From the IMG/VR virus record IMGVR_UViG_3300046737_000215, positions 1 to 57,439 of that record: DNA of 57,439 nt; one strand, given 5' to 3'. The position numbers and the translations under genes were made by a program. This document shows, piece after piece, positions 4,840 to 57,174 of this stretch. How positions within the stretch are numbered: the first letter of the stretch is position 1; each line of letters begins with the position of its first letter. This DNA is from a virus. Under the pieces are notes generated by a model that had not been told where the DNA came from, ran no database searches, and saw nothing but the letters and a program-made list of their open reading frames with translations.

Positions 4840-5892
4840 ATGCTCGTCGCTGCGCCCAAGAATCTCGGTACCTGGACTATCTCTCTCCACGACGTCGGCT
4901 CAAAAAGCGACGGGGGCATCTACACTTGTGACCTCTCGGGGCGGCTGACGTTCCGGACGCGTGCGGAGCGTCGGGCTTGGCTGAACCCGACTAAGCGGCA
5001 AGGCAACACGAAGTTCGCGCACGGCGGATTCGTCCCGGCGCTCTTTGGCGACTCTCTGGAGCGCAAAAACTGGAACGCGAGGGGCACGGACGCTTGGGTG
5101 GTGCTGGACTTCGACGGGCTGCCTACGGAGGCCGCTAGCCGCTTCGGCGCGCTGGCGCCGCTCACCGGAGAGTGGCTGACGTCTTACTCCCAAGGCATCA
5201 AACCCGGTGGTCGCATCCGGATGGTGCTAGAGCTCGACCGGGCGCTCAAGTACGACAAGTCATCCGGGGTTGACGAGGTGTCGCCTGCCCGCGCGGCGGC
5301 GTCTTATTACGTGGCGGAGCTCCTTGGGCTAGACGCCGAGGCGCTGGCCGAGAGCAACGTAATCGACCGACTTTGCTGGAGAGTCAGCCAGTACTATAAT
5401 ACGCCTTGCCACGACCCTAAGCGCCCCGGAGACACGTACTTCGCGGAGCTCAACGGTGGCCACGTGCTCTCGGTCGACGCGCTGCTCGCGAAAGGCCGCT
5501 CGCTGGTCAAAGTCTTAGCCGGGGCAACGCCGCTCAAGCCGGGCGAATACCCGGCTCCGACCCCCCGAGACCGGGAGCTGGCGCTGGAAGACCTAGAGAC
5601 CGTATGTAGCTGGCTCGAGGCTCACCGGGGCAGCGGCTTCGGCTACTCGTACGTCCACGTCAAGCGCCTCGGGGGTCGCGTCGCCCTCGGGCAGCTGGCG
5701 TTCGACGAGGCGGAGGACTGCCTGCTCTCCGCGGTCGCAGATGGGCTGGACGCTGAGGCAGAGGAGTCCTCGACGAAGCCCGACGCGGATTTGCTCGCTC
5801 GACGAGAGGCGTATGTTAGAGCATGGCTGAACGACCCGTACGTCCACTCGGGCCTAATCGCCTCAAAGCTGGAGTTCTCGCGTGAAGCTTGA
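4840..5892 (+). CDS. Archaeo-eukaryotic-type primase/primase-polymerase
   Basis: A 350-residue protein with primase (AEP) motifs in order: the catalytic DxD in VVLDFDG (90-92), then SYSQ (115-118) followed by GGRIRMVLELDRAL, which fits the basic/His motif segment, and later DRLCWRVSQYY, typical of the last core strand. A helical C-terminal region follows. Expected role: synthesis of primers at phage replication forks. It overlaps the next gene (helicase) by 11 bases, so the two are made together. It is transcribed away from the recombination operon. Confidence 0.75.
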   Translation: MLVAAPKNLGTWTISLHDVGSKSDGGIYTCDLSGRLTFRTRAERRAWLNPTKRQGNTKFAHGGFVPALFGDSLERKNWNARGTDAWVVLDFDGLPTEAASRFGALAPLTGEWLTSYSQGIKPGGRIRMVLELDRALKYDKSSGVDEVSPARAAASYYVAELLGLDAEALAESNVIDRLCWRVSQYYNTPCHDPKRPGDTYFAELNGGHVLSVDALLAKGRSLVKVLAGATPLKPGEYPAPTPRDRELALEDLETVCSWLEAHRGSGFGYSYVHVKRLGGRVALGQLAFDEAEDCLLSAVADGLDAEAEESSTKPDADLLARREAYVRAWLNDPYVHSGLIASKLEFSREA

Positions 5893-7924: not shown

Positions 7925-8074
7925 GCCCGAATCCGTGAGTTTCCTCCGGTGTGCGTAGGGGCACTTCTGTTGAGGCGATTCGAGCGATTCCAGCTACTTA
8001 GCGAGTCGGCGTCCATCCGGTAAATCCCGAATAGCCGAATGAAAACACTAGGCGGTCTGCGCTTTCTCACACAG

Positions 8075-8123
8075 CGGAACGAGTGCCAATAGAGATATCT
8101 CAGACTCTCTGGCACTCGTTCCG
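8075..8123. repeat. Loop-conserved hairpin element, copy 1
   Basis: A perfect 14-bp inverted repeat (8075-8088 and 8110-8123) encloses a 21-base loop that contains the 10-bp palindrome GAGATATCTC (8092-8101). Copy 2 at 37563-37635 has a loop differing at one base and a stem in which one base pair is changed on both sides (G:C here, T:A there). No T-run follows, so a terminator is not obvious. Confidence 0.9.
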
Positions 8124-8211
8124 ACCTTTGAGATAACTCACACCTCCGGATAGGCGGCTACCGGCGGTCGCTGAGCGAGACTCGGGATGGGCGAGCTTCG
8201 GCGCTTCGGGA

Positions 8212-8247: not shown

Positions 8248-8580
8248 ATGAACTGCCTGCCGCCCCCCGCCCTCGAAACCGCCCTCTGCCACGTCGCCCA
8301 TCCGGGAGATTGCGAGTGCACCCTCTGCCTGCCTACGCGCCGCCTAATCGCCGCCTGGCCCGTCCACGGGACGTTCTGCGGCTGCGAGCATTGCCTTCGA
8401 GCGAAGGTCGCCCGCATCGACGCCTTCGCCGAGGGCTTGCTGGCCGGCCTCGCCGCCGCCCCAGAGACCGTAGAAGGCCCGCAAAGGGTCGGGGCGCCAG
8501 TCAGCTACCCCCAAGACGTTTTCGGGGCTTCTAGCAGCCCTACGCGCCGCCCGCCGCCCCCTCTGCCGTCCAGGCGCTAG
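8248..8580 (+). CDS. Small protein with duplicated zinc-knuckle motif
   Basis: A 110-residue protein. Residues 18-27 and 40-49 repeat the same metal-binding spacing, H-x3-C-x-C-x2-C (HPGDCECTLC and HGTFCGCEHC). The last 50 residues are Pro/Ser/Arg-rich and look disordered. No ribosome binding site is present; the start fits a leaderless transcript from the promoter at 8212. HxxxCxCxxC-type motifs occur in small phage DNA-binding or regulatory proteins. It is read towards the convergent tail gene. No family name is given. Confidence 0.6.
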   Translation: MNCLPPPALETALCHVAHPGDCECTLCLPTRRLIAAWPVHGTFCGCEHCLRAKVARIDAFAEGLLAGLAAAPETVEGPQRVGAPVSYPQDVFGASSSPTRRPPPPLPSRR

Positions 8581-8588
8581 AGGTAGCC

Positions 8589-10064
8589 TCAGAAGCCGTA
8601 CTGAAGGTAGTGGTGCTTGGCGACCTTGTCAGCGTCAAGGTTGCTGAGGAATGCCGAGTGGAGCGTGACGCGCTCGACGGTGCCCGCGAACCGATAGAAC
8701 TGATGACCCAGTTTCAGCGCCGTTGGAGCCGCCAGCGAAGGCGACACGGGATTGAAAAACGGCGCCGACGTCCACGTGCCGCCGTTGGTGCGGGTTTGTA
8801 GGGTTCCCGTTTGCATGCGGTACTGCACCACCAACTTCGTGTTGATGGGCACGGTACGCGGCGTGTTGCCGTTGTACAGCGCACCGCCGCCGACGTAGCA
8901 GTACGGCAGAAGGCTCCCCCCCGTAAAGCGCAACAACAACCCGGCATCCGTACCCAAGGTGGTCGTGAAGAGGTCCGCGTTTGCGGCGGTGTACCGGCAC
9001 GTAATCGTCAAAGTACCACCGAGGCCGTTGTGGAGACACGCCCAGTCAGCCAAGGAGCCGGAATATAGCATCTCGTCGTTGGAGCCGTCGAACGTGGCTG
9101 AAGGCAGGCTATTCCAGGTTGCATCCGACGCCGAGTACGTCGGGCGCGCGGTGCCGGTACCGACGAGCGACTTGGCCCGAATGGTGTCTGCGATAGCGTC
9201 GACCGCTCCCGACGTTTGCTGGATGGTAGCAGCGTCCAAGACCGTCCCAGAGACCGTCGATAGATCCGGCGTGACCATCGCTGGAATGGCGCCGAAGTTG
9301 CCCGCGAACTGCTGAGCCAGCACGGCTGCGGCAGGAGCGGCTTGGTGAACTAGGTAGTCTACTTGCGTGTTGTTGACGGCCCCATTCCCCCACGGTCCAG
9401 CCGGGTCAACCACGAACATAATGCGGTCGGCGGCTGCCCACGCGGCCTGTTGCGTCCGCACGGTGTTCCAGCTCGTCGAGTAGTTGACGTGCGGCGTGCC
9501 CGCGGGGAGCTGGGCGTACAAAATCGGGACGGAAGCGGCACCTGCGATAGCAGCCCGCCACGCGGTGAACGTGGTCGTCCAGTTCGTACCCCACGCCGGG
9601 CTGCCCAGCGAGCCGTCGTTGGCGCCGCCGTACAGCAGGAACCCGCCTAGATACGCTCCGGGCTGGGACAGAGCCAGCGCAGCCGCCGCGATGACCTTTT
9701 GATGCATCGACACGGGGTTTACGTCTGGTAGGTAGTGCGTTGAGTTTGTGCCCGACACGCCGCACTGCACCGAAAGGACTTTCTTGGTCGGGATCTGGCG
9801 CTGGCGGTACCAGGCGAACATCCCGTCCGGTCCCACGCCGCCAGGCCCCGGCTCGGCCAGCTCTGTGACCGAAGCCGCGAAGTCCCGGACCATGTACAAG
9901 GTGCCGTCGGCCGGAGGGAAGAACCCTGGCATTTCGGTGATCAGGCCCGAGCCTTGCATCTCTGAGTCGCCGACCGAGATCCACACCTCCATAGGAGTAG
10001 TCCCAGGGCTTGTACTTCGACGCGCGGGGGGGGCTCGGCGGATGTCACGGCGTAATAGGCGCAT
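8589..10064 (-). CDS. Tail-associated SGNH/sialate-esterase-like protein with C-terminal lectin-like domain (paralogue 1)
   Basis: Up to 491 residues. The SGNH hydrolase blocks are visible: GDSE with the catalytic Ser (about residue 34), LLYGGANDGS as the GxND block, and DYLVH as the Asp-His pair. The C-terminal 200 residues (ATIQQTSGAVDAI onwards) look like a LamG/ConA-type beta sandwich. Expected role: removes acyl groups from surface glycan during adsorption. It lacks the N-terminal domain of its paralogue at 10107-11891; the start is uncertain (10064, or 9992 at MEVWISVGD), and a run of eight G bases at 10026-10033 lies in between. Confidence 0.75.
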   Translation of the reverse strand: MRLLRRDIRRAPPARRSTSPGTTPMEVWISVGDSEMQGSGLITEMPGFFPPADGTLYMVRDFAASVTELAEPGPGGVGPDGMFAWYRQRQIPTKKVLSVQCGVSGTNSTHYLPDVNPVSMHQKVIAAAALALSQPGAYLGGFLLYGGANDGSLGSPAWGTNWTTTFTAWRAAIAGAASVPILYAQLPAGTPHVNYSTSWNTVRTQQAAWAAADRIMFVVDPAGPWGNGAVNNTQVDYLVHQAAPAAAVLAQQFAGNFGAIPAMVTPDLSTVSGTVLDAATIQQTSGAVDAIADTIRAKSLVGTGTARPTYSASDATWNSLPSATFDGSNDEMLYSGSLADWACLHNGLGGTLTITCRYTAANADLFTTTLGTDAGLLLRFTGGSLLPYCYVGGGALYNGNTPRTVPINTKLVVQYRMQTGTLQTRTNGGTWTSAPFFNPVSPSLAAPTALKLGHQFYRFAGTVERVTLHSAFLSNLDADKVAKHHYLQYGF

Positions 10065-10106
10065 AGCCTATACTCGCCGACTAGAGGGCTACTCGGCCCT
10101 TCAACC

Positions 10107-11891
10107 TCAGAAGTAGGCGACGTGGTGGGACTGCGCGACTTGGTTGGCCTCGTAGTCCGTGAGGTACTTGGAGTGCAGCGTGGCCCGCATTATCGTTCCC
10201 GCGAAGCGGTAGAACTGGTACCCGAGACGAGGGGTGAAGGTCGGCGCTGCAACCGACGGCGAGCCCGAGTATGACGGTGCCGGCGTCCACGGCTGTCCGT
10301 CGAGGCGGATTTGCAGGGCGCCGGTTTGCATTCGGTACTGAACCGTGACGCGGGTGTTATTTGTAATCGCGCGCGGTGTGTTGCCGTTGTACGTCAACGA
10401 GGAGCCGCGATAACAATAGGCGAGGAGTTGCCCGCTCGACACGCGCAACAACAACCCCGCGTCTGCGCCCGCGGTCGAGCAAAACACGTCGGAGTTGGTG
10501 TTGGTGTAGCGCATCGTAATCGTCAAGGTGCCTCCAGACCCGTCGTGTAGACACGAGAAGTCCGCGGCGGCACCCGAGTATTGCAACTCGTCATCTGACG
10601 CGTCGAACGTGGCCGAGGGCAACCCGCCCCAAACCGCGTCCGAGGCGGAGTACGTCGGACGAGCGGTGCCGGTGTTGGCAAACGACTTGGTCAGCACCGT
10701 GTCAGCAATCGCGTCCACAGCACCGGCCGTCTGCTGGATGGTGGCAGCGTCCACAACAAGATCGGCGATGGCCGTCAAGTCTGGCGAGGTGAGTTCAGGA
10801 ACCGCACCGAAGTGTTCGGCGAACTGCAGGCCAACCGCGGCTGCCTGGGCGCCGGTACCGTGAACCAAGTAGTCCGGGTACGACGCGTCTATCGCATTGT
10901 TTATCCACGGCCCGACCGGAGACGCCGCGAACATGATCTGGTCGGCGGCTTGCCATGCGGCTTGCTGCGCGCGCACCGTCGCCCAAGACGTGGAGTAGTT
11001 CGTGTGCGGCGTGCCCGAGGGCAGCTGGGCGTACAAGATGGGCGCGGTCAGCGCCGCGCCGCCGATTGCAGTACGCAACCCAGCGAACGCCGTCGTCCAG
11101 TTCGTACCCCATGCCGGGGTAACCAGCGAGCCGTCGTTGGCTCCGCCATAGAGAAGGAAGCCGGCGAACACCGCATTTGGCTCCGCCATGGCCAACGCCG
11201 TCGCGGCGATAGTCCTCTGGTAAGCCGACACGGGGTTCACATCCGGCAAGAACTGCGTGGAGTTGCTGCCCGAAATCGCGCACTGCACGGAGATTACCTT
11301 GTTGGAGGCGCCGAGCTGTCGCTGGCGATACCAAGCAAACAGCCCGTCAGAGCCAACAGAGGACAACTCGTCCACGGTCCCGGAGAAGGCGCGCACCATG
11401 AACGTCCCACCGTCGTACGGCGGGTAGAAGTCCGGCGTTCCGTACCCCACAGCATTCACGTCCAGCCCGTACATCTCGGAGTCGCCCAGCGAGACCCACA
11501 CCTCCGTCGTGTTGACGGGAGCGGGCTCCACGCCATCGTCCACATACACCACAGCGTCAGGGGGAAAGCCGCCCGCCCTCACGAGGGAGTACGTACCGTC
11601 TACGAGGGTCGAACCCTCTAGGTAGTAATACGTGAACTCGCCGTCTCGAAAGGCGGTCTCGGTGTACGTACCGAACGAAACGGAGATGACGTCTCCTTCC
11701 TCGGCGAAGCCCGTCATAGGCTCTTCCGAGTAGCCGAGGTCGTCGGAGCTCGTGAGGAGTCCGCCCGCACGGAGGTTCCGGGCGATGTAGTCCGTGAGCT
11801 CGACTTCAAGGCCGACCTCTAAGGTAGGGTCGGAGGCGGTCGGCACACCTACGGTCAAGGGCGGGTTGGGGTAGACGAATATGGTCGCCAT
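10107..11891 (-). CDS. Tail-associated SGNH/sialate-esterase-like protein with N-terminal domain (paralogue 2)
   Basis: A 594-residue protein. Residues 1-130 are a separate beta-rich domain (MATIFVYPNPPLTVGVP onwards), probably the virion attachment part. Then come the SGNH blocks VSLGDSEMYG, LLYGGANDGS and DYLVH, and a C-terminal beta domain very like that of the neighbour. The two proteins are clear tandem paralogues over about 460 residues. Expected role as a tail fibre or spike that binds and deacylates host glycan. It sits next to the large terminase and the small virion protein. Confidence 0.75.
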   Translation of the reverse strand: MATIFVYPNPPLTVGVPTASDPTLEVGLEVELTDYIARNLRAGGLLTSSDDLGYSEEPMTGFAEEGDVISVSFGTYTETAFRDGEFTYYYLEGSTLVDGTYSLVRAGGFPPDAVVYVDDGVEPAPVNTTEVWVSLGDSEMYGLDVNAVGYGTPDFYPPYDGGTFMVRAFSGTVDELSSVGSDGLFAWYRQRQLGASNKVISVQCAISGSNSTQFLPDVNPVSAYQRTIAATALAMAEPNAVFAGFLLYGGANDGSLVTPAWGTNWTTAFAGLRTAIGGAALTAPILYAQLPSGTPHTNYSTSWATVRAQQAAWQAADQIMFAASPVGPWINNAIDASYPDYLVHGTGAQAAAVGLQFAEHFGAVPELTSPDLTAIADLVVDAATIQQTAGAVDAIADTVLTKSFANTGTARPTYSASDAVWGGLPSATFDASDDELQYSGAAADFSCLHDGSGGTLTITMRYTNTNSDVFCSTAGADAGLLLRVSSGQLLAYCYRGSSLTYNGNTPRAITNNTRVTVQYRMQTGALQIRLDGQPWTPAPSYSGSPSVAAPTFTPRLGYQFYRFAGTIMRATLHSKYLTDYEANQVAQSHHVAYF

Positions 11892-12386: not shown

Positions 12387-12445
12387 TCTGGTCGTGATGG
12401 GCCGGGTCAATCGCCCCGGTCGGCAATGGTGCTGACCGGGGTTTT
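12387..12445 (+). ncRNA. Candidate phage small RNA, about 59 nt
   Basis: Bounded by the promoter at 12352-12380 and the intrinsic terminator at 12414-12445. It contains no reading frame of note. It would be antisense to the gap between the large terminase and the small tail gene, with its 3' end abutting the terminase stop codon. Structure: a GC-rich hairpin before the terminator (GGGCCGGG...CCCCGG). Inferred from signals only. Confidence 0.45.
12414..12445 (+). terminator. Rho-independent terminator
   Basis: CCCCGGTC (12414-12421), 12-base loop, GACCGGGG (12434-12441), then TTTT. It points along the plus strand although neighbouring genes are on the minus strand. Confidence 0.75.
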
Positions 12446-13921
12446 CTATTTCCGGCCGCCCTTCCGCCACTGGGCTTTCGCCGCGGCGATTTCGTCCGCT
12501 TCGCGGTCGGCATCGGTCTTGACCACGGCGGGCTTGGCGAGGAAGGCGCGGTGTTCGCGCCACGCATACAGCGTCGCGTCCGAGCAGTGGTTCGGATACG
12601 CAGGGTGGGCCTTGGTCTTGGCTTCGTCCGCCCACGGGAGCGCGTTCCACTCCTCCACTACCGGCGCAGCGGAAGGCACGAAGGCTTTGACCCGCCCCAA
12701 CCGTAGATCCGAGTTGAACATGCCGATGGCCTCGGACCGGTTCATCTTCTTAGCCGGAATGGCGGCCCCGCCGGCCATCTTGCCATAGCGCTGCTGGAAC
12801 TCGGCGAATACGAGCTTGCCCTGGCCGCCGACGTCGATAACCGTCCTAGAGGCACGGTACTTGTCGCGGAACTCCTTGAGCTTGAGCGCCTGCTCGTCGG
12901 CTCGGAGACCGGCCTGAGTGAAGGCGTCCAGTACGTAGACGTCGGTCGAGCCCGGCGGCGAACCCAGCGCCACCACGGCGCAAGCGTCAGTAAACCCGAC
13001 GTCGAGGGCGCACGTGACCAACCACGACTCCCTAATCCACTGGTCGAGCGGGATGTTGGCCGGGGCGTCCGGGAGGTCCCGAGCGGTGTTGCGTGTGTTG
13101 TTGGCGGCGTATACCAGCACGGATTCGTCCTGAACCCACTCGCCCAGGTACTCGCGCCGGTAGGAGGGGTCCTCTTCCGAGATGTTCTCTTCCTCTCGGA
13201 TTTTGCGCAGGATGTCCTCGATACTCTTGCACTTCCGGTTGTTCGCCAGCAACAACGGGTTGTCCTTCAAGGTCCACCCGAAGCACTTCCAGCCGGGCTT
13301 CAGTCCCGAGGACACGGAATACCAGTACCCGCGCCGCGAGTAGCCCGGCGTTCCCGCCAAGACGATGCGCCCACCGACGTCGATGCAACCCGGCGAAATG
13401 CAATCCACGACGAGGCGTTCTAGAAGCATCTCGTAGGTCGCGCTCTCGTCGCACACAGCCAGCCGCCACTTCGACCCCCGGACCTTCTCGGCGGCGTTCT
13501 GGTCGTCCACGCCGAGCAGGATGAAGCATGCCCCATCCGGAGTAGTTATCTGACCGATATGGGCGGACATTGTCCAACCAAGGCCGTACTCGTGGTTGAT
13601 CTTGTCCAGAATGGGCCAGATGATCTGGCGAGCGCGGGCTAGCGTCCGGGCCGCAAATAGCGAAGTCTCGTTATGTCCCGACTCCAGGAGCGAGATGGCG
13701 AGCATGCGCCCGGCCAGCTCCGTCTTGCCTGCGCGCCGCGAGCAGCACACCGCGATGCGGTCAGACTCGCAATCCAGCACGTCCAACTGGAGCTGGAACA
13801 AGTCCGCACGCAATTGCCGGATGACGTCCGCCTTGAACTCGGGGGTCTCCCGGCGCGTGGCCAACTCTTCTTGTGCCCTACGGGCTAGCTCGCGCTTAGC
13901 GTCAAGTGCCGTAAAGGCCAT
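12446..13921 (-). CDS. terL: Terminase large subunit
   Basis: A 491-residue packaging motor. The ATPase domain has Walker A SRRAGKTE (61-68), Walker B LAVCDE (Asp158, Glu159) and the coupling motif LAGTPG (188-193). The RNase H-like nuclease starts at ALDVGFTDA (Asp307), continues with VIDVGGQGK and ends near NHCSDATLY. Packages DNA into the prohead and cuts concatemers. It is unusually far (about 19 kb) from the small subunit at 32684. Confidence 0.95.
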   Translation of the reverse strand: MAFTALDAKRELARRAQEELATRRETPEFKADVIRQLRADLFQLQLDVLDCESDRIAVCCSRRAGKTELAGRMLAISLLESGHNETSLFAARTLARARQIIWPILDKINHEYGLGWTMSAHIGQITTPDGACFILLGVDDQNAAEKVRGSKWRLAVCDESATYEMLLERLVVDCISPGCIDVGGRIVLAGTPGYSRRGYWYSVSSGLKPGWKCFGWTLKDNPLLLANNRKCKSIEDILRKIREEENISEEDPSYRREYLGEWVQDESVLVYAANNTRNTARDLPDAPANIPLDQWIRESWLVTCALDVGFTDACAVVALGSPPGSTDVYVLDAFTQAGLRADEQALKLKEFRDKYRASRTVIDVGGQGKLVFAEFQQRYGKMAGGAAIPAKKMNRSEAIGMFNSDLRLGRVKAFVPSAAPVVEEWNALPWADEAKTKAHPAYPNHCSDATLYAWREHRAFLAKPAVVKTDADREADEIAAAKAQWRKGGRK

Positions 13922-16900: not shown

Positions 16901-17574
16901 ACGAGAGCCCCGGTGGCGCGCGCGGCGGCGGTCTTAGCGATAGACGCCTTGACGGCCTCCTCGCCTAGCATCTTGGTGGCGACCTTTGCGCCGTACTTCT
17001 CGAAGAGCGCGACCGGCGAGAGGGCTAGCGCTTTGGCGCCGAGCCCGGCGGCCGTACCCGCTCCGAGTGTCGCGATCGTGCCGATGCCCTGCCCGATGAT
17101 GTCGCCGGCTACGCCGAGCTTCTCCTGCCGGTCGCGCCGGTCGGCCTCAGCCGCCGCGAAGTCCTGGCCGAAGGTGGCCTCGGGGGCAAGCGGGGCGTCG
17201 AGCCCAGGGGCTGCCGCCACCCCCAGGTCGCCGCCCGCGGGGGCCAGTTGCCGGACGCCTGCCGACGCAACCGAGCCCGCCAACCCGCCGATGCCCCCTA
17301 GGGCGCCGCGGTCAACTGCTTCGCCAAACGCCAGCCCGCGCTCTGCCACGCCCGCCAAGCCGCCCGCGAACGTCGGGTTGAACTCGCCGCCCTCGGCGAA
17401 CCGGGTGTCCTCGTAGCCCTGGCCGAGGTAGTCTATGTGCTCGGACTCCGGGACTTCTACGGTCTGGCCGTCCTTGACCATCTTCACGGTCGGCTCGGCG
17501 GCCGGCGGGGGCGCCGAAGCGGCTCGGCGGTCAGAAACGGACTTCAGTACGGCGAGCTCTTCGGGTGTCGGCAT
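13957..17574 (-). CDS. Large internal virion protein with embedded GNAT-like domain
   Basis: A 1205-residue protein, probably ejected into the host with the DNA. N-terminal 300 residues are Gly/Ala-rich with hydrophobic stretches (GIGGLAGSVASAG, TIATLGAGTAAGLGAKALAL) that could insert into membrane. Around residues 490-570 there is an acetyltransferase-like segment: SVAHIQVPPSKGRQGIGSKL with the RQGIGS acetyl-CoA loop, then YAKADEFARSKGLKLASD. The rest is mostly helical. Starts MPTPEE like the upstream gene. Its 5' junction is one copy of the 51-bp direct repeat (17563-17613). No clear Shine-Dalgarno. Confidence 0.75.
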   Translation of the reverse strand: MPTPEELAVLKSVSDRRAASAPPPAAEPTVKMVKDGQTVEVPESEHIDYLGQGYEDTRFAEGGEFNPTFAGGLAGVAERGLAFGEAVDRGALGGIGGLAGSVASAGVRQLAPAGGDLGVAAAPGLDAPLAPEATFGQDFAAAEADRRDRQEKLGVAGDIIGQGIGTIATLGAGTAAGLGAKALALSPVALFEKYGAKVATKMLGEEAVKASIAKTAAARATGALVENLGQGALSAATDNVDTALKDPIEAAKNIAFGTAVSGGVGAVLGGGLGLAEGAIRATGNALRPALDAAVAPKPLVPAVRDILPEQAVEANATRELFSAKLPDEKRTWAGTRLAETRAMGSEDNVKAEVGRALVRGIDEKEALAIEAHDALGIAQKRRVNEVALQQGFADNIAGVDPDDLVRQQVAQDRAGLAAQELAQYDSAVADATARRQAAVDAEAAARKALDNAEAGRIAPTVVAPAVNAADLGEIVPNAKFSRDMPDFRADTFDLGDSRIQVNSNELPGYASVAHIQVPPSKGRQGIGSKLYAKADEFARSKGLKLASDSLDKQTPESAGWWKKQVAAGRAELDPTVNRYVLNRPLTESFEKAAPAAAGKPKKLPKSEMRLYKEAFQAAREDLKKATKEFDRVSGDVGSRRAAADALAKEAASLPAARPMTRLEADSRDLFSGMSAAAREFLPTVAGPDRDVVENFMKRVAAHRTAVIDAYRAGDYGTAHNLIDQGLKGAVGDLVNGAKSSEVQDFAMNLYRAPQGFLENAQVWGDDIAGRNVLANRSWSDAIHAGKNSGYRSLHTNSGVAGRGGFGERQTGNSGPIAGFLNNIGKFEGETTEVGTRNALRADTLDYTNRQAAWGDESTAHIPAKMAKIQTHLEDAMDHAALESRLAAQGRQRIQNGALLATVGAAASGVGLATGNPILAAAGVPFISARWLLNTLGQYKGDVAQTIAKGVSGLLSGTGKAIAPVAKGGARLLAKQAGSAARERELSKPGNSRAETIARSNAILDQRSPEFVEAAIEAEKMNVLSPGLGDAALQHRLETAQYLVNKLPKPPSSAVFSPPPRLTSAAATSLDRTILAVNGPRKTFERIVTGAATAEDLDMCRTLYPQQYKQLTDTIMAEVQKNPQRVKSNSLRMYLSRVTGQPLTPALMRLADSQKRAQAATQGAEDAGAPEGQGANGSDGVTARAPIQFDGNPDALMARSDSIMAR

Positions 17575-17613
17575 GTGCTTATATTACTCTACCAGCTCCA
17601 GCTTCGACCCCGT
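17563..17613. repeat. 51-bp direct repeat, left copy
   Basis: Identical to 18108-18158. On the minus strand it carries the last codons of the upstream gene (GSKLELVE, stop), the leader TAATATAAGCAC, and the start ATGCCGACACCC. Here only the start is used; the stop-side codons are a remnant. Confidence 0.95.
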
Positions 17614-18070: not shown

Positions 18071-18107
18071 GCCCACGCGACCGTTTCGGACGGCGCCTCG
18101 GCGAACC

Positions 18108-18158
18108 GGGTGTCGGCATGTGCTTATATTACTCTACCAGCTCCAGCTTCGACCCCGT
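18108..18158. repeat. 51-bp direct repeat, right copy
   Basis: Identical to 17563-17613. Here the stop-side codons (GSKLELVE, stop) are the real end of the gene at 18129. Just left of it, CTCGGCGAACCGGGTGTC (18097-18114) also occurs at 17394-17411 within the next virion gene, so the junction is a mosaic. Confidence 0.95.
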
Positions 18159-30441: not shown

Positions 30442-32349
30442 TCAGACCGGCGGGGCTCCGATGCCCGGGGCGAGGATTTGCGTGGGCAGTTCAGCGCCCA
30501 TCGGTGGCGCTCCCGGAGGTGCCATTCCGGGACCGGCGCCGGGGGCTGCGGGCGGCGGGGCTGCCTGGGCAGCGGCCTGGTCGAGCAACTCCTCGCAGAA
30601 AACCATAAAGTCTTCCAGGCGCTGGAGATCGTCCTCGTCCGCGCCCATGGTCGTTGCTTTGAGCTTGGCCTTCGTGACCAAGTCAACCGCCATCGCGAGG
30701 TCCTGGCGCGGGTCGGGCATGGGCTCGAAACCGTCAAGGAGCTGTTCGATCTGCCACCTGACGATGTCAAGGTGCGCAAGCTCCTGGGACGCATACGCGT
30801 CGAGGTCCGGGAACTGCAAAAGTTGCATCGAATACTGACGACTGACGAACCCTGCCTGTATCCACTCTTGCACTGCGGCCCACTTGCCTTGCGGGGTCGT
30901 GGGGAGCGCGGACAGAGCGGCCATCGTAAGCCGAGCGTCGCCTTGTGGTGGGCGAATCTCCAGCCAGTTCGAAGTCTTGAGGAAGCGAGACGACTGGGTC
31001 GTGCGCCCCTCGACGGCGATCTTGTAGTTCTCATCTCGGCTGGCCATGTCATCGTTCATGCGCTCGAAGAGCCTGGCGACACCCTGCATAGACGACTGAA
31101 AGCGAGTCACGTACTGGACCAACCGGCGAGACTGGACGTCGTCTGCGGCTCGGACGGCGACGCCCGAGTCCAGACCCTTACCCGCCCCCTGGCCTCCCAT
31201 CTGGGATGCCGAGAGGCCCTCGGACATCATCCAGCGCTCTGTTTCGAGCTCCACTTGTTGCTGAAGGTCGCCCAGGGTGCCTTCCCACTTCGCGAGGGTC
31301 GGCGGCCCGAATGCGGGCTCGTAGTTGAGCACTAGGCCGATGTCATTCGTGAACTTGGCGGGGGCAATCGAGCCGTCGCCGTTCGGGTTAAAGATGATGA
31401 TGTTCGACGCAAGGTCTTGCGCGCGCGCGATGCGGGTGATGAGCTGGTCGATACGGAGCTGGTGGGGCTCGCACGACTCGCCGAGGCCCGCGCCGTAGTA
31501 CCCCATGTCGCGCTCTCGAAACCGGAAGACCGAGCAGGGGAAGTCTGTGTGCGAGTAGCCCGTGTCAAGCAGCGTAAGCCCGTCGAGGCAAAGCACGTGC
31601 CGGCCCTTGCCCTTAGCGGTAGGTTTCAAATAGTAGGCGTCCACGCACTCTACGAAATCCTTGTGTGAGTAGCCCGCGCCGAGGCCAGCGGTCAGGATAT
31701 CGGACTGATACTCTCGGGACACTGCCGGCGCTCGCATAATCTCGGCGGCGTACTTCGGCAGCTGGGCGGCGAGCTGGTGACGCGACATAATGCGCGTTCG
31801 GGCCAGGCAGCGGGGCTTCATCGTCATCCCGTCGAGGTGCTCGACGTAAACCGACTCTGCCACTTCGCGCTCAACTGTCACGAGCCCGGTAACCGGGTCG
31901 AACTTCTGGAACACGAAGCCGGTGCCGATCTTGAGGGCGTCCAAGAGAGCGCGCTTGCACGCCTCCTTGACTTCGTCGGACATTTGACCCTGCAAAACCT
32001 CGGAGGCCCGCTCCGCTTTGCGCATGAGCTTGAAGTCCGCCCCGACAGTTATATATTGTGGAATGCTGGGCGCCTGGCCGATGAGCGAGAAAGCCGTATC
32101 CACGCCCGCCGCGGTAAGATTATACCCGATGTGAGGCGCCCCACCCTCCTGCTCGCGGCCGAACCAATAGCGGCTGGTGCCCTCCGACCGGAGGCCCGTG
32201 GGGTTGCCGCGCGAGTAGAGGTCGCGATGTAGCGCCCAATCCTCTCGCATATCGGCTTGTTGGCGCCGGCAGTGATTGACGAAGGCGAAGACATCTTTGT
32301 GGGCCTGGCCCCTCGGCTCTTGAAACCAGCTACACCCGTTTTGTGTCAT
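30442..32349 (-). CDS. Portal protein
   Basis: A 635-residue protein. The mid region includes the portal-like segments GYYGAGLGESCEPHQLRIDQ and LASNIIIFNPNGDGSIAPAK, then the long helical crown part with SASQMGGQGAGKGLDSGVA and QSRRLVQYVTRFQSSM. Pro/Ala/Gly-rich C-terminus. Forms the dodecameric ring where DNA enters and leaves. Followed by the scaffold. Confidence 0.85.
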   Translation of the reverse strand: MTQNGCSWFQEPRGQAHKDVFAFVNHCRRQQADMREDWALHRDLYSRGNPTGLRSEGTSRYWFGREQEGGAPHIGYNLTAAGVDTAFSLIGQAPSIPQYITVGADFKLMRKAERASEVLQGQMSDEVKEACKRALLDALKIGTGFVFQKFDPVTGLVTVEREVAESVYVEHLDGMTMKPRCLARTRIMSRHQLAAQLPKYAAEIMRAPAVSREYQSDILTAGLGAGYSHKDFVECVDAYYLKPTAKGKGRHVLCLDGLTLLDTGYSHTDFPCSVFRFRERDMGYYGAGLGESCEPHQLRIDQLITRIARAQDLASNIIIFNPNGDGSIAPAKFTNDIGLVLNYEPAFGPPTLAKWEGTLGDLQQQVELETERWMMSEGLSASQMGGQGAGKGLDSGVAVRAADDVQSRRLVQYVTRFQSSMQGVARLFERMNDDMASRDENYKIAVEGRTTQSSRFLKTSNWLEIRPPQGDARLTMAALSALPTTPQGKWAAVQEWIQAGFVSRQYSMQLLQFPDLDAYASQELAHLDIVRWQIEQLLDGFEPMPDPRQDLAMAVDLVTKAKLKATTMGADEDDLQRLEDFMVFCEELLDQAAAQAAPPPAAPGAGPGMAPPGAPPMGAELPTQILAPGIGAPPV

Positions 32350-36045: not shown

Positions 36046-36489
36046 TTACTTCTCCTCCGGGAGTCCGTTAGCCCAGTCGCGGGCGATCCTCTGAAGGCCG
36101 ACGAGCTGCTTGGCGCGCTCGGCGGCGTAGGCGGCGCAGGCGGCGTCGTAGGCGGCGTAGGCGGCGTCGGCGTAGGCGGCGTCGGCGTAGGCGGCGGCGG
36201 CGTCGTCGGCGGCGTAGGCGGCGTAGGCGGCGTCGGCGGCGGCGTAGGCGGCGTAGGCGGCGTCGGCGGCGGCGTCGGCGGCGGCGCGGCCTTTTGCGCG
36301 CTTGGCGCATACGCGGACGAATCGGGCTAGCCGGAACTCTCGCCCCATCAGCCAAATCAGCCAGTCGACTCGGGGGCAGCTACCGACGATTTCGGCGGCG
36401 TCTTCGGAGAGGTGTTGCAGTACGTAGGTCGCGGCGCTGAGGCACGCACGGTGCTTGTCCATCGTCAGTAGCAGTTCGGTTTTCGTCAT
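36046..36489 (-). CDS. Alanine/tyrosine-repeat protein, 147 aa
   Basis: The N-terminal 70 residues form a helical domain with WLIWLMGREFRLARF; then about 50 residues are tandem Ala-Tyr-Ala-Asp units (AAYAAYAADDAAAAYADAAY), followed by AKQLVGLQRIARDWANGLP. The DNA repeats GGCGGCGTAGGCGGCGTC units at 36120-36290. Proteins with this arrangement are sometimes named putative immunity-like in phage genomes; no function is established here. The opposite strand is also open across the repeat because of its composition. Confidence 0.6.
   Translation of the reverse strand: MTKTELLLTMDKHRACLSAATYVLQHLSEDAAEIVGSCPRVDWLIWLMGREFRLARFVRVCAKRAKGRAAADAAADAAYAAYAAADAAYAAYAADDAAAAYADAAYADAAYAAYDAACAAYAAERAKQLVGLQRIARDWANGLPEEK
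36120..36290. repeat. Short-period GC-rich tandem repeat
   Basis: Units of GGCGTAGGCGGCGTC and variants (GCGTA, GCGTC, GCGGC) run for about 170 bases inside the alanine-repeat gene. Unit order is irregular, as expected from repeat slippage. Confidence 0.85.
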
Positions 36490-36641: not shown

Positions 36642-37322
36642 CTAATCTCTCGGCCCGAAGCCCCCGCGATCGTATGGATCGGCGGGCATGCGGAAGAGCT
36701 GGTCCAGCCCGCGGCCGTGCCAGTCCTCTATGTGCCGAAGCCCGCGGTAGCTAGGGACGTCCAGGACCTCCGCCCACTCGGGCCATTCGCGGTCCGGGAT
36801 GTAGACAATCGCCTTGTATAGGAGCTGCCATCGCACTTGGCGTCGCTGCTCTCCGGTGAGGCCGTGGTCGAGCTTAGGCGGCGGCTCCAGAATCCAACGC
36901 AACACTGCGTGAAACGTAGTCGCGTATTCGTCCGAGATGGCTTCCAACATATTCGCCTCCTCTTGGGTTAGGCGCACTTGCAAGCGAACCGAGCGGGCCG
37001 CGTTCGTTGCTTTGACGGCTCGGGCGTGGGCGGCTTTGCGGACCCGGTACTCAGGGTCGTACTGGGCGGCGCCGACCCGGGCCCGTCGACGTTGGAGCTG
37101 GATGATCTCCTGCTCGACGCCGTCAGGCGTAGCGTTCTCGGGGACGACCATCCAAACCTTCAGAAGCTCTGATACGGACGCGCCGGTTTTGGCGGCGAGC
37201 CGGAGCAGCCGAGAGTGCTCGTCAGGCGTCATGTTGACTTCCTGGTCGAGGGCGGGGCCGTCGTCCGAGATGTCGGCGGAGTCCATGATGGGGTCGAGGA
37301 AGGTGTCTAGATAGTTTGCCAT
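36642..37322 (-). CDS. Putative DNA-binding protein with two ribbon-helix-helix-like segments
   Basis: A 226-residue protein. Segments VNMTPDEHSRLLRLAAKTGA SVSELLK (about 29-55) and VRLQVRLTQEEANMLEAISD (about 115-135) each have a strand-helix-helix pattern like RHH/MetJ-Arc proteins, as in plasmid copy or partition regulators. The C-terminal part is Arg/Trp-rich. Its promoter (37331-37359) is at the edge of the 1.5-kb origin-like region and the mRNA would be almost leaderless. A regulator of the adjacent region is inferred. Confidence 0.5.
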   Translation of the reverse strand: MANYLDTFLDPIMDSADISDDGPALDQEVNMTPDEHSRLLRLAAKTGASVSELLKVWMVVPENATPDGVEQEIIQLQRRRARVGAAQYDPEYRVRKAAHARAVKATNAARSVRLQVRLTQEEANMLEAISDEYATTFHAVLRWILEPPPKLDHGLTGEQRRQVRWQLLYKAIVYIPDREWPEWAEVLDVPSYRGLRHIEDWHGRGLDQLFRMPADPYDRGGFGPRD

Positions 37323-37330
37323 GACCGAAA

Positions 37331-37359
37331 AAATAACCTTACTCGTGCTCGGGAGTCAA
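37331..37359 (-). promoter_or_regulatory. Promoter of the RHH-like gene
   Basis: On the minus strand TTGACT (37354-37359), 17-base spacer, TTATTT (37331-37336), 8 bases before the ATG at 37322. The spacer ends AAGG, giving AAGGTTATT as in other leaders. Confidence 0.6.
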
Positions 37360-37562
37360 CCGAATAAAAGTCATCCGAGCCGAAGGCGGGGTCGTCGAGT
37401 CGAGTCGAGGTCTATCCCGATTACAGCGTTTCCGTAGAATTGAACAAAGACCCCCTAGAGACGATTCTCCGACGACCGACGAGACCCGATAGTCGGCTCT
37501 CCGCGATAGTCGCTCAGTCCGTGTCCATCCGTGATGCGCCTTACACGAAGTGAGCTAAGTAT

Positions 37563-37635
37563 GCGTCAGGGTGACGGAACTAGTGCCAATAGAGATATCT
37601 CAGACACTCTGGCACTAGTTCCGTCACCCTGACGC
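37563..37635. repeat. Loop-conserved hairpin element, copy 2
   Basis: A perfect 26-bp inverted repeat (37563-37588 and 37610-37635) around a 21-base loop that has one base difference from copy 1 at 8089-8109 and contains GAGATATCTC. The inner 14 bp of stem matches copy 1 except one compensated base pair; the outer 12 bp is additional. Confidence 0.95.
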
Positions 37636-38428
37636 TTTAAGAACGATACATCACAAATCCCAAAACCTCGTCGCGAAGCGCTTCTCGACGACCGTCGACC
37701 GTCGACTAGCCGACCCCCGCTCGCTGCGCTCGCTGGGGTCGGACTCGGATAAAGCAACTCACCCGACCCGGATGGTCGACCCCCGCCTAAGCGTCGACCC
37801 CTAGGTAAAAGTAACCTGTCGCCTAGCCGACCCAACCAAAAAATTGGCCCAGCCGATCTGCGTGCCGATCTTCTCGGGCGCGCCGGATGGGCACTTAGCC
37901 GCTTAGCCGGGCTCGGGCCCCGATGGCTAGTCGCTTAGTCGGCAGCCGCTTAGCCGGTAAAAGCAACTCACAAACACACCCAAGGCAAAATCTCCGACAC
38001 GCTCATAGCGGGGAAATCGGCGCACGCCGTAGGCGCCCAACCCCTCCCCCCTACATGTGGGCAACCGAAAGCTCAACGATTCCGTGCACTTGGCCGTCTG
38101 ACCAGCCAGGTTGCGCCCTCTAGCCCACTGAATCCGAGGCCCTTGCCTACCTGTAGCCCCCGCCTAGGCACCTAGCTGCCCCGCCTAGCCCCGAGGCCCC
38201 CGAGGGCTAGCTGCCTAGCTGCGGTGCCCGCTCCGGGCCGCCTAGGGGCCTCAGCGGCGCCGCCATGGCCTTCGGGGAGGCTCGGGGCCCGGGCGCCTAG
38301 CCGCTTAGTCGGCCTTCGGACCGAGGCAAGGTACTGGTTTCCGAGGTATCAATGCGACCTAGCGCACCGGAACGAGGGCAGGTCGATTTCTCAGCGAGGC
38401 GATGTCTGTGCGGGGGGCGCGGTAGTAC

Positions 38429-38485
38429 CTGCCGTCTAAGCGCCCCATCGGCTCGGCAGCTGCCGTCTAAGCGCCCATCGGCTCG
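38429..38485. repeat. Tandem repeat of about 27 bp in the origin-like region
   Basis: CTGCCGTCTAAGCGCC(C)CATCGGCTCG occurs at 38429-38455 and again at 38460-38485, differing by one C. Confidence 0.9.
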
Positions 38486-38798
38486 TGGCCTCGCCGCCCC
38501 GAAGCCCCGCCGCTCTGGTCGCCGCTAGCGGTCGGCTAAGCGGCTCGGCAGCCAGTCGCCTGGTCGACGTGCCGAACCGTCCCTCGCGGTCCCCGCATTG
38601 CTCTGGTTATCTTTTCCACAGACCCTTGAAAACAAGTGTTTCAATTTCCGTGCCCGCCGCAAAGCGCTTCTCAGGCACCTCGGAGAGCCCGACTTACGTT
38701 CAGCCATGGTCCCACGTTCTCCTGGGCTCCACATCGAGCTACCTCAGCCGACGCTTGTACGTAGTCCCACTGTAGGGCCTTTGTGGTACGTTCAGCCC

Positions 38799-39020
38799 AT
38801 GAACGAAAAAGACCCGTCAGACAGTTGGGGCGACGTCAAACCCCCGAAGCCGCGTAGGCCCCATCCGAACAGCAAGGTGCAACGCGACTTGCTCATCAAG
38901 CTTTACGCCGCCGCGCCGGTCAAAGCAGCATTCGATGCAGCGAGACTCCCGGGAGAGTCGCTGTCAGCGTGCGTGCGTAGGCTGGCGTGGACGGCATTGC
39001 AAGCACAGGTGAAGCCGTGA
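38799..39020 (+). CDS. Hypothetical protein, 73 aa
   Basis: MNEKDPSDSWGDVKPPKPRR then a helical domain (VQRDLLIKLYAAAPVKAAFD, SLSACVRRLAWTALQAQ) that may be RHH-like. First gene of a three-gene plus operon leaving the origin-like region; its stop overlaps the next start (GTGA). Not recognised. Confidence 0.55.
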   Translation: MNEKDPSDSWGDVKPPKPRRPHPNSKVQRDLLIKLYAAAPVKAAFDAARLPGESLSACVRRLAWTALQAQVKP

Positions 39021-39337
39021 CCGAGTGTTGGTTCTGCAATGAGCACGCATCCGTCAAGCTGGCTAGTGGGCGCGTCGCTCTGCCTGCGTGCCGGTGCTGT
39101 CGTCAGCTGGCGGGTTGGGATGGCCGCGAGGGCTTCCAGAAGCCCAGGGAGCTTGCGGGAACGATACTGCGCGCATTCGATGTGCGCTATCGCAAACTGC
39201 TCGACATGCCGTTGTGGTCCGAAGATGAGCTAGACGAACTGGACTATCACTTGCGCACAAGCGTGGCCGCTACGGTGGCAGCAGCGCGCATAATCCACAT
39301 CCGAAGGGCAGCCATCATGCTGCGAGTGAACAGCTAA
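39017..39337 (+). CDS. Hypothetical zinc-finger protein, 106 aa
   Basis: Starts at GTG overlapping the previous stop. CWFC (res 4-7) and CRCC (about 29-32) form a likely four-Cys zinc site; the rest is helical (LDELDYHLRTSVAATVAAAR). The next gene starts within its stop (TAATG). Not recognised. Confidence 0.6.
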   Translation: MTECWFCNEHASVKLASGRVALPACRCCRQLAGWDGREGFQKPRELAGTILRAFDVRYRKLLDMPLWSEDELDELDYHLRTSVAATVAAARIIHIRRAAIMLRVNS

Positions 39338-39654
39338 TGGACTACCTATCGGTCACTCGGGCGCTAGCCGCCCACGATGATTGCCACGCCGCGGTGATGG
39401 CAGCATTCCGCCTAGCCGCTCGCAAGGGCAACCCGGCAACCCGATGGAACAGAGCCGACCGCGAGACGATGGCGCTAGCACTAACGGCCGCTGAGGATTG
39501 GTTGGACTCTCGCCGCGAGCCTACCGCCTCAGCAGCGTACCGTCGCGCGCGTAGGGCGCTAGAAGACTCGCTGAGCGTCGGAACCGGCAAGGGCGCGGCG
39601 CCGGATAGCTGGCCGCTCGTGCGGGCCGCGGTGCGTAGCCGACTGGCCGCCTAA
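39337..39654 (+). CDS. Hypothetical helical protein, 105 aa
   Basis: MDYLSVTRALAAHDDCHAAV and further Ala/Arg-rich helices (RETMALALTAAEDWLDSRRE). Last gene of the plus operon, directly before the terminator at 39661. Not recognised. Confidence 0.6.
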   Translation: MDYLSVTRALAAHDDCHAAVMAAFRLAARKGNPATRWNRADRETMALALTAAEDWLDSRREPTASAAYRRARRALEDSLSVGTGKGAAPDSWPLVRAAVRSRLAA

Positions 39655-39660
39655 ACGCCG

Positions 39661-39693
39661 AACGCCCCGCTGGATTGCCAGCGAGGCGTTTGG
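39661..39693 (+). terminator. Terminator of the plus small-gene operon
   Basis: AACGCC-CC-GCTGG, short loop, CCAGC-GA-GGCGTT followed by TGG; the stem is GC-rich with an internal bulge and a weak T tract. Confidence 0.6.
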
Positions 39694-39713
39694 TAGGCGG
39701 AGCAGTTCCCCGC

Positions 39714-39735
39714 GGGTATCCTAGGTAGGATACCC
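39714..39735. terminator. Near-perfect hairpin between convergent units
   Basis: GGGTATCCTA, two bases, TAGGATACCC: a 10-bp inverted repeat between the plus operon and the convergent minus gene at 39769. A transcription barrier role is inferred. Confidence 0.5.
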
Positions 39736-39768
39736 GGCTTGCCGGCCTAAGCGGCCTAGCGGCTCGCC

Positions 39769-40551: not shown

Positions 40552-41130
40552 CTACTCGTTCGGTGCGGACTCTCGCACAATCGCCCGAACTGAGTAGTCC
40601 GACACCTCGACTAGGCGCGCGGTTTCGGCGACCGAAAGCCCGTCCGCCAACGCGGCGAGCACTGCTAGGCGCCGCTCCGGCGAAATCGAGCGCGGGCGAC
40701 CGGTCTTGACGCCGCGCGCTTTCGCCGCGGCAATCCCGGCGTGGACGCGCTCTAGCGTCGTCTCGCGTTCGAGCTGGGCCAACACGGCCATAATCCCGAG
40801 CATCGCGCGACCCATCGGCGTGGACGTATCGAATCCTTCGGTCAGCGACCGGAGCGAAACGCCGCGCGCTTCTAAGTCCCGCACTAGCGTAAGCACGTCC
40901 AGCGTGTTGCGCCCCAGGCGCGAGAGCGAGTACGTCACGAGGGTATCGCCCCGGCGCAGGTGCACAAGCAACGCGGCCATGGCGGGCCGTTCGCGGGCCG
41001 GCAAGGCGCCCGATACGCCCTCGTCCGTGAACGTCGCCTCGGGGCTCACGCCGGCCTTGCCGAGGGCATCGAGCTGCAACGCGATGCTTTGGGCATCGGT
41101 GCTAACGCGAGCGTACCCATAAGTAGTCAT
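40552..41130 (-). CDS. Serine recombinase (resolvase/invertase family)
   Basis: A 192-residue small serine recombinase: MTTYGYARVSTDAQ with catalytic Ser10, then YSLSRLGRNTLDVL, PMGRAMLGIMAVLAQLERE and a C-terminal HTH (LAALADGLSVAETARLVEVS). It cuts and rejoins DNA at short paired sites. The ATG at 41130 overlaps the stop of the small membrane gene. No integrase is present, so roles could be dimer resolution of a circular form or inversion; no crossover site could be assigned. Confidence 0.9.
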   Translation of the reverse strand: MTTYGYARVSTDAQSIALQLDALGKAGVSPEATFTDEGVSGALPARERPAMAALLVHLRRGDTLVTYSLSRLGRNTLDVLTLVRDLEARGVSLRSLTEGFDTSTPMGRAMLGIMAVLAQLERETTLERVHAGIAAAKARGVKTGRPRSISPERRLAVLAALADGLSVAETARLVEVSDYSVRAIVRESAPNE

Positions 41131-42311: not shown

Positions 42312-42461
42312 TCAGCCCGCCAGGGCCGACTCGATGGCCATCGCGATTTCGACTCGCGCAAGGACGGCGCTTTGTACGCGGCGACCTGCCTCGGTCTTCG
42401 CGGGGCGCATGATCAGCAAGAGGGCGATTTCGGCGTTGGACTTGCAGATTGACTTAGACAT
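42312..42461 (-). CDS. Hypothetical protein, 49 aa
   Basis: MSKSICKSNAEIALLLIMRP then AKTEAGRRVQSAVLARVEIA. Preceded by AAAGGGG and by promoter E3. Not recognised. Confidence 0.5.
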   Translation of the reverse strand: MSKSICKSNAEIALLLIMRPAKTEAGRRVQSAVLARVEIAMAIESALAG

Positions 42462-42492
42462 CGGTGGGCCCCTTTGGTGCCGGGTGACTTAG

Positions 42493-42523
42493 CTATTACG
42501 CGCTCGTTCGCGCCCGAATGCAA
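42493..42523 (-). promoter_or_regulatory. GCGCG-type promoter E3
   Basis: Minus strand TTGCAT (42518-42523), 19 bases containing GCGCGAACGAGCGCG, then TAATAG (42493-42498). Leader of about 30 bases with GCACCAAAGGGG. Confidence 0.65.
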
Positions 42524-48525: not shown

Positions 48526-48749
48526 CGGCACGTTGTCACACACACTGACCCGGCGAGGGGCGGCGCGTTTTCCGAGTAGACGATGGGCGGATTGCACTTA
48601 GTCGAGCAGCTCTGGATCGTGACCTTCGTGCCGATGGGCAGCTTAGGCGACGAAGCGCAGCCCGAGAAGAGCGCGACGCCCGCGATGGCCGCTAGCGTGA
48701 TTGTGACGCCCAATGAAAGTCCCACTACCATATCTCTTAGCTCGTTCAT
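48522..48749 (-). CDS. Lipoprotein, 75 aa (o-spanin-like)
   Basis: Signal peptide (MNELRDMVVGLSLGVTITLA, then AIAGVALFSGC) with a lipobox FSGC, then a 45-residue mature part with more Cys (SCSTKCNPP, VCVTTC). Short lipoproteins in lysis regions act as outer-membrane spanins; the Pro content is modest, so this is only a suggestion. Its promoter, ribosome site and first nine codons are duplicated upstream (61-bp tandem repeat). Confidence 0.6.
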   Translation of the reverse strand: MNELRDMVVGLSLGVTITLAAIAGVALFSGCASSPKLPIGTKVTIQSCSTKCNPPIVYSENAPPLAGSVCVTTCR

Positions 48750-48843
48750 CTTTGACTCCTTGGTTCCTAACCTAGCACGTCGCCACTACCATATCTCTTA
48801 GCTCGTTCATCTTTGACTCCTTGGTTCCTAACCTAGCACGTCG
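48722..48843. repeat. 61-bp tandem duplication (two perfect copies)
   Basis: Copies at 48722-48782 and 48783-48843. Each holds, on the minus strand, TAGGTTA, AAGGAGTCAAAG and the first nine codons of the lipoprotein gene. Confidence 0.95.
48772..48810 (-). CDS. 12-residue leader-like peptide made by the duplication
   Basis: MNELRDMVVATC then stop. The first nine codons copy the lipoprotein start, the last three copy the end of the upstream 48-residue gene. It has the same strong ribosome site as the lipoprotein. Probably a by-product of the duplication. Confidence 0.4.
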   Translation of the reverse strand: MNELRDMVVATC

Positions 48844-48859
48844 CCACAGCGATAATCAA
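48830..48859 (-). promoter_or_regulatory. Promoter in the distal copy of the duplication
   Basis: On the minus strand TTGATT (48854-48859), 18-base spacer, TAGGTT (48830-48835). The proximal copy keeps TAGGTT (48769-48774) but not the -35. Confidence 0.5.
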
Positions 48860-57099: not shown

Positions 57100-57174
57100 A
57101 ACTAACCCTCGAAGCGCCTGAACCATTCAGGCGGGCTTTTGCGACACATTAGTGCCGACCTTCGAGGGTTAGTT
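57100..57174. repeat. Nested inverted repeat
   Basis: A perfect 15-bp outer inverted repeat (57100-57114 and 57160-57174), AACTAACCCTCGAAG, enclosing a terminator hairpin (57115-57140). It lies between the HNH gene and the 83-residue gene. Confidence 0.9.
57115..57140 (+). terminator. Intrinsic terminator, plus strand
   Basis: CGCCTGAA, CCA loop, TTCAGGCG, then GGCTTTT. Points along the plus strand, where no gene is evident upstream; it could block antisense transcription. Confidence 0.75.

Follow-up and report, generated by a model that had tools for sequence, protein, structure and literature searches.

A stem-loop is present in two copies, at 8075-8123 and 37563-37635, in the 57,439-bp DNA analysed here (hereafter, the window), which is the whole of the IMG/VR virus record IMGVR_UViG_3300046737_000215, and the pair is clearly more than chance: it is a real, statistically solid two-copy stem-loop. 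Our tentative interpretation is that the twin hairpins are a stem-loop that replication proteins of the phage itself recognise for the start or the priming of replication; however, a role as a transcript-level insulator is almost as likely. The twin stem-loop stands outside the canonical terminators and the Rfam families, and it is not evidently a resolvase site. The source is an uncultured tailed phage (a bacterial virus) of about 63% GC, the gene set of which includes a terminase, a head-tail adaptor, a polymerase, an ATP-dependent DNA ligase, a T5 A1-like protein and an endolysin; no tRNA genes were found in the 57,439-bp window. The first 39 bp of the window recur at its end with 1 mismatch, and the gene order running across the window ends is collinear with that of a relative (L013), so the 57.4-kb map is best read as circular.

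Anatomy of the twin hairpins and the matching of their arms

Copy 1 (8075-8123, + strand; CGGAACGAGTGCCA / ATAGAGATATCTCAGACTCTC / TGGCACTCGTTCCG) consists of a 14-bp perfect stem, with its 5' arm at 8075-8088 and its 3' arm at 8110-8123, and a 21-nt loop, ATAGAGATATCTCAGACTCTC, at 8089-8109. Copy 2 (37563-37635, + strand; GCGTCAGGGTGACGGAACTAGTGCCA / ATAGAGATATCTCAGACACTC / TGGCACTAGTTCCGTCACCCTGACGC) has a 26-bp perfect stem (5' arm, 37563-37588; 3' arm, 37610-37635) and likewise a 21-nt loop, ATAGAGATATCTCAGACACTC, at 37589-37609; the outer 12 bp of this stem (37563-37574) are absent from copy 1. The loops, which are described together by the pattern ATAGAGATATCTCAGACWCTC, are identical at 20 of 21 positions, and each contains the palindrome GAGATATCTC (8092-8101 and 37592-37601), which is off-centre by 2.5 bp relative to the arms. 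The common 49-nt core occupies 37575-37623 within copy 2 and is identical to 8075-8123 at 46 of 49 positions; of the three differences, one falls in the loop and the other two make up a single stem pair (G:C versus T:A). This core ends exactly at the outermost pair of the copy 1 stem. Beyond it identity falls to the chance level (7/40 and 8/40), and likeness between the flanks of the two copies is borderline or absent; the core therefore has sharp limits, and in copy 2 the outer 12 bp of the stem arose independently of it. The hairpins have the same orientation, are 29.5 kb apart on the 57.4-kb map and lie in regions with a low coding score. The flanks directly after the stem are ACCTTTGAG and TTTAAGAAC on the + strand and CTGTGTGAG and ATACTTAGC on the - strand; the + side has only three T (CTTT) after the stem, and a T-run is lacking on the - side. 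The bases thus bear out the original prediction in its coordinates, its 14-bp and 26-bp stems, its loops differing at one base, its two-sided change of one stem pair and its placing of both copies in one orientation, in non-coding gaps and without a T-run.

The chance expectation was taken from 60 first-order Markov shuffles of the window, in which perfect stems with a loop of 3-60 were counted. The shuffles gave a mean of 0.017 perfect stems of at least 14 bp per window and none longer than 14 bp; the real window has three such stems, of 26, 15 and 14 bp, and copy 2 is its longest perfect hairpin. Both copies form very stable RNA folds on both strands. Copy 2 folds as RNA with a z-score of about -12 and ranks first in folding strength across the genome; copy 1, with a z-score of -6 to -7, ranks third. 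The chance probability of a 10-nt palindrome within a random 21-nt loop is near 1.6%, and two random stem differences would land on partners and stay complementary in about 1% of cases (1/27 x 1/3, our own arithmetic). This last figure favours something that keeps the arms matched, which is not necessarily selection.

The conserved loop and the covarying stem pair had been taken as an indication of selection on structure. The departure from chance is sound, and the step to selection is suggestive, as the comparison comprises two copies and one covarying pair. Selection on structure is plausible, resting on one base pair; a single pair that covaries between only two copies speaks for it weakly, because template switching also makes arms match. 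Switching of template by DNA polymerase is known to homogenise short inverted-repeat arms without selection, and a single event can lengthen a 5-bp arm to 16 bp (PMC8604942). Such switching would yield both the two-sided pair change and the 12-bp extension of copy 2, and with only two copies in one genome it is inseparable from selection. The element may accordingly be a duplicated or mobile palindrome that has no present function and is kept perfect in its arms by template switching, with its covariation and extension as mutational products. We consider this unlikely, although the sharp limits of the core (46/49 inside against 7/40 and 8/40 outside), the documented homogenisation and extension of arms and the lack of the element in every relative found are all in its favour. 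However, a loop identical at 20 of 21 positions would have no reason to stay conserved unless the duplication were recent, no target-site duplication and no host or plasmid source were seen, and the copies number only two.

Further copies were sought with exact and degenerate patterns for the loop, the stem and the whole element, in databases that may leave out near-identical records. At the sensitivity used, no copies were found in IMG/VR viral contigs; four loop-only matches there lack the stem and are attributed to chance. The exact and degenerate patterns likewise had no match in GTDB genome contigs, in GenBank phages or in plasmids. Rfam returned nothing at the gathering score for the window, and the matches below threshold were mostly generic microRNA hairpins. 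Searches with the terminase, the head-tail adaptor and the polymerase gave no relatives; the T5 A1-like protein led to two usable ones, L013 (60,122 bp, 60% identical) and L014 (50,571 bp, 56%), which have replication genes in common with the window phage. A search with a conserved leader motif retrieved just the L013 contig again. The hairpin element is missing from both of these nearest relatives, which were examined over 60,000 bp (L013) and 50,571 bp (L014). The original prediction held that such an absence would count against it, but at 56-60% identity in one protein both are too distant to be informative: their lack of the element says little, since intergenic DNA is not expected to persist at such a distance.

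Gene context and a possible role in replication

The two copies bracket a leftward structural and late module (8589-37322, - strand) that includes the terminase gene (12446-13921, - strand) and the head-tail adaptor gene (30442-32349, - strand), and the first gene of which is RHH-like (36642-37322, - strand; NikA-like, below the curated cut-off). From the stop of a helicase-like gene (5882-7924, + strand), itself preceded by a primase-like gene (4840-5892, + strand), it is 150 bp to the start of copy 1, which is separated by 466 bp from the end of the leftward module. Copy 2 sits 241 bp upstream of the RHH-like gene, in a CGCTTAG-rich gap without clear coding signal (37323-38798) that is part of the largest such gap; 37323-39768 scored as uncoded, and small + strand genes probably begin at 38799. 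The 37323-38798 interval holds 8 of the 19 genomic CGCTTAG/CTAAGCG motifs, several palindromes and two AAAGCAACTCAC boxes, and it is a candidate control region or origin.

The gene at 4840-5892 is putatively an archaeo-eukaryotic-type primase, as suggested by motifs recognised by eye (VVLDFDG and GGRIRMVLELDRA) and by weak matches of its relatives. The protein gave nothing significant in Pfam, PHROGs or NCBIfam and no PDB sequence match. Its structure was predicted with low confidence (mean pLDDT of 41 in both models), and a fold search with the poor model returned mostly small ferredoxin/RRM-like domains, none of them significant, and was given no weight. All three phages have, by eye, a run of hydrophobic positions that includes Asp-x-Asp-like residues and, after it, a strand containing arginine, an order also seen in archaeo-eukaryotic primases. 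The helicase-like protein has Walker motifs (Walker A GTGKS; LICDE) and is homologous to the helicase half of a fused gene in the relatives; its superfamily-2-like matches are all below threshold, and no winged helix was found in it. The primase-like and helicase-like parts form this one fused gene in both L013 and L014, and the primase-like halves of the relatives match phage helicase-primase families weakly (phrog_3228, E 0.004 and 0.11).

This setting is consistent with a cis-acting stem-loop that the phage primase-helicase would recognise, as extruded or single-stranded DNA, by its loop and inner stem, and that would act as a start or priming site. In the plasmid pRN1 and in Bordetella phage BIP-1 a large stem-loop lies directly 3' of an archaeo-eukaryotic primase-helicase gene; that of pRN1 is required for replication, remains functional when moved elsewhere and tolerates one stem mutation only with the partner changed as well, whereas the BIP-1 origin is putative (Berkner et al., PMC4234260). 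The twin hairpins resemble these in that a long stem-loop other than the terminator lies 3' of putative replication genes, and in pRN1 both stem pairing and loop matter; copy 1 has this position directly 3' of the helicase-like gene and copy 2 does not. What is conserved between the copies, namely the loop and inner stem and not the flanks or a U-tract, is what would be expected of a recognised hairpin and not of an intrinsic terminator. The spacing of the copies, 29.5 kb on a 57.4-kb map taken as circular from synteny, also fits this reading. Behind the fused primase-helicase-like gene of L014 there is likewise a 13-bp hairpin, which starts 39 bp beyond the stop, but it resembles copy 1 neither in sequence nor in loop and may be a terminator, and L013 carries the fused gene with no strong hairpin behind it. 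The pRN1 element differs further in having one copy, with a stem of 21 and a loop of 58 nt (here two copies, with stems of 14 or 26, a loop of 21 nt and loop conservation), and its primase is fused to a superfamily-3 helicase and a winged helix, whereas the window has separate primase-like and helicase-like genes.

A second point of comparison is RSF1010, whose ssiA and ssiB are single-strand initiation hairpins read by the primase RepB' (PMC4434180). There, as here, two similar short hairpins occur in one replicon, and a plasmid-encoded primase of archaeo-eukaryotic type reads them single-stranded. However, each strand there carries one ssi hairpin, and the tails of these hairpins are single-stranded and include a conserved GTG motif; the opposite strands and conserved tails were not found in the twin hairpins, which have the same orientation, unrelated flanks (7/40 and 8/40) and conservation in the loop and inner stem. 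In a more specific and less probable form of the replication reading, the window would represent an undescribed phage group with a two-site system, in which the primase-helicase loads on a folded, single-stranded and sequence-specific hairpin with a conserved 21-nt loop to start or prime replication. One stem-loop would lie behind the primase-helicase genes and the other nearly opposite on the circular map.

Several observations weigh against a replication site. The primase assignment is below significance and both structure models are poor, the helicase is not established as superfamily 3, unlike those of pRN1 and BIP-1, and an array of iterons could not be established at copy 2. Neither copy shows the signal of an origin or a terminus in the GC skew at four-fold sites. 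The whole-window cumulative skew maximum at 37410 adjoins copy 2, but it was set aside as origin evidence because the four-fold-site skew is a coding-strand effect, with no switch at the copies. The suggestion of an origin element, one of several options raised for the hairpins, thus gains some support from the place of copy 1 just 3' of the primase-like and helicase-like genes and none from GC skew. Few phage replication starts are known outside the model phages, and stem-loop origins with archaeo-eukaryotic-type primases amount to a handful of cases; if the hairpins were replication sites, they would be a compact cis element by which, in a group of uncultured phages, a defined DNA structure is tied to a primase-helicase.

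Possible action on transcripts, on duplex DNA and in recombination

The bracketing of the leftward module (8589-37322) by copies in the same orientation, together with very stable RNA folds on both strands, also suits an RNA-level hairpin acting as a transcript insulator, or as a processing or stability element, around the leftward structural operon. Read-in would be stopped or trimmed at 37.6 kb and read-out at 8.1 kb, by non-canonical or Rho-assisted termination or by RNase III cleavage. This is a possible function, again held tentatively. Other long perfect hairpins without U-tracts occur in gene leaders and gaps of these phages. The + strand ORF 8248-8580, downstream of copy 1, is an uncertain gene, and its status decides whether the gap around copy 1 is convergent: it is if the ORF is spurious, as the insulator would favour, and it is not if the ORF is real. 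However, the U-tract is absent at both copies although other places in the genome (e.g., 12413-12442 and 27763-27736) look like terminators and do have one, the loops of terminators are not expected to be conserved, and copy 2, instead of marking a gene end, precedes the first gene of the operon by 241 bp. RNase III classically needs about two helical turns, and a 14-bp stem is short for it. A canonical intrinsic terminator was considered and rejected: the stable GC-rich hairpin is present, but no U-tract directly follows the stem. The twin hairpins share with intrinsic (Rho-independent) terminators a GC-rich hairpin in non-coding gaps and differ from them in the missing U-tract, the long conserved loop and the copy upstream of an operon; neither copy was listed by terminator scans of the genome. 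If they were transcript insulators, a phage could fence its late operon without U-tract terminators.

A nascent RNA that modifies RNA polymerase, as in antitermination of the nut or put type with two copies near early promoters, is a very unlikely function. Phage HK022 has exactly two put sites of similar sequence, putL and putR, which are antitermination RNAs present as two similar structured copies per genome (PMC9378689), and in this number and likeness the twin hairpins agree with them. The put sites, however, have two stem-loops within about 70 nt and lie downstream of early promoters; by folding, each copy here has one stem-loop, no promoter could be assigned to the DNA preceding either copy, and the sole sigma-70-like match near copy 2 falls between copy 2 and the gene.

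The hairpins could instead be double-stranded DNA sites at which the RHH-like protein or another phage regulator binds, either to 14-bp half sites with a 21-bp spacer or to the inner GAGATATCTC palindrome, and we regard this as improbable. The RHH-like gene is close, 241 bp downstream of copy 2, and related motifs lie around copy 1 on the same strand over 8065-8143: TCTCACAC at 8065, TCTCAGAC in the loop at 8098 and ACTCACAC at 8136, with spacings of 33 and 38 bp. This motif set is not repeated at copy 2, where no flank resembles the loop, and at copy 1 such a resemblance falls short of significance (15 of 200 shuffles). The inner palindrome is also off-centre from the arms by 2.5 bp, a 26-bp perfect stem exceeds the needs of a dimer site, and no further operator copies were found at other promoters.

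Least probable of the functions considered, and in our view highly doubtful, is a recombination site for the encoded serine resolvase (40552-41130, - strand; Pfam Resolvase match). Its gene lies 3 kb from copy 2, but if these direct copies recombined, the genome would break up into circles of 29.5 and 27.9 kb and essential modules would be parted. On inspection there was no crossover dyad of about 28 bp, the symmetry being limited to the central 10 bp, and L013 has a 49%-identical resolvase without the element. A res site was rejected, as dyad subsites of about 28 bp beside the resolvase gene were not found and the copies lie 3 and 32 kb from it. The original prediction had named a serine recombinase and an RHH-like protein as possible partners of the element; both are indeed encoded, but nothing links either to the hairpins.

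Other structures and repeats in the genome and its relatives

Long perfect hairpins occur in the same syntenic slot in all three phages (57100-57174 in the window, 8975-9044 in L013 and 8685-8770 in L014), immediately ahead of a small gene that itself precedes the T5 A1-like gene. Their stems are 15, 19 and 19 bp and their loops 45, 32 and 48 nt, respectively; they contain inner hairpins, their sequences are unrelated, and those of L013 and L014 closely precede a Shine-Dalgarno-like AGGAG. The hairpin in this slot may be a conserved leader structure. A perfect 10-bp hairpin with a 4-nt loop (CGGGTATCCTAGGTAGGATACCCG) and no U-tract was also observed at 39713-39736, in the convergent gap 39654/39769.

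The interval 42312-42523 is 84% identical over 212 bp to 17402-17613 of a distant relative (L093), far above the rest of the two sequences, and comprises a short gene start, a ribosome-binding site and a leader with GCGTAATAGCTAAGTCACC. This leader recurs before another small gene in L093. A 52-bp exact repeat (17562-17613 and 18107-18158) takes in the opening codons of two adjacent leftward ORFs together with the DNA upstream of each, and a 61-bp unit is perfectly tandem-duplicated at 48722-48847, in a region without clear coding signal. At 36082-36324, a GC-rich repeat of 9 and 12 bp codes for an alanine-rich ADAAYAAYA stretch in ORF 36046-36489. Lastly, two tandem paralogous genes at 8589-11891 are 68% identical in DNA over 1.2 kb; the first matches SASA carbohydrate-esterase, and the pair probably encode tail or receptor-binding proteins.
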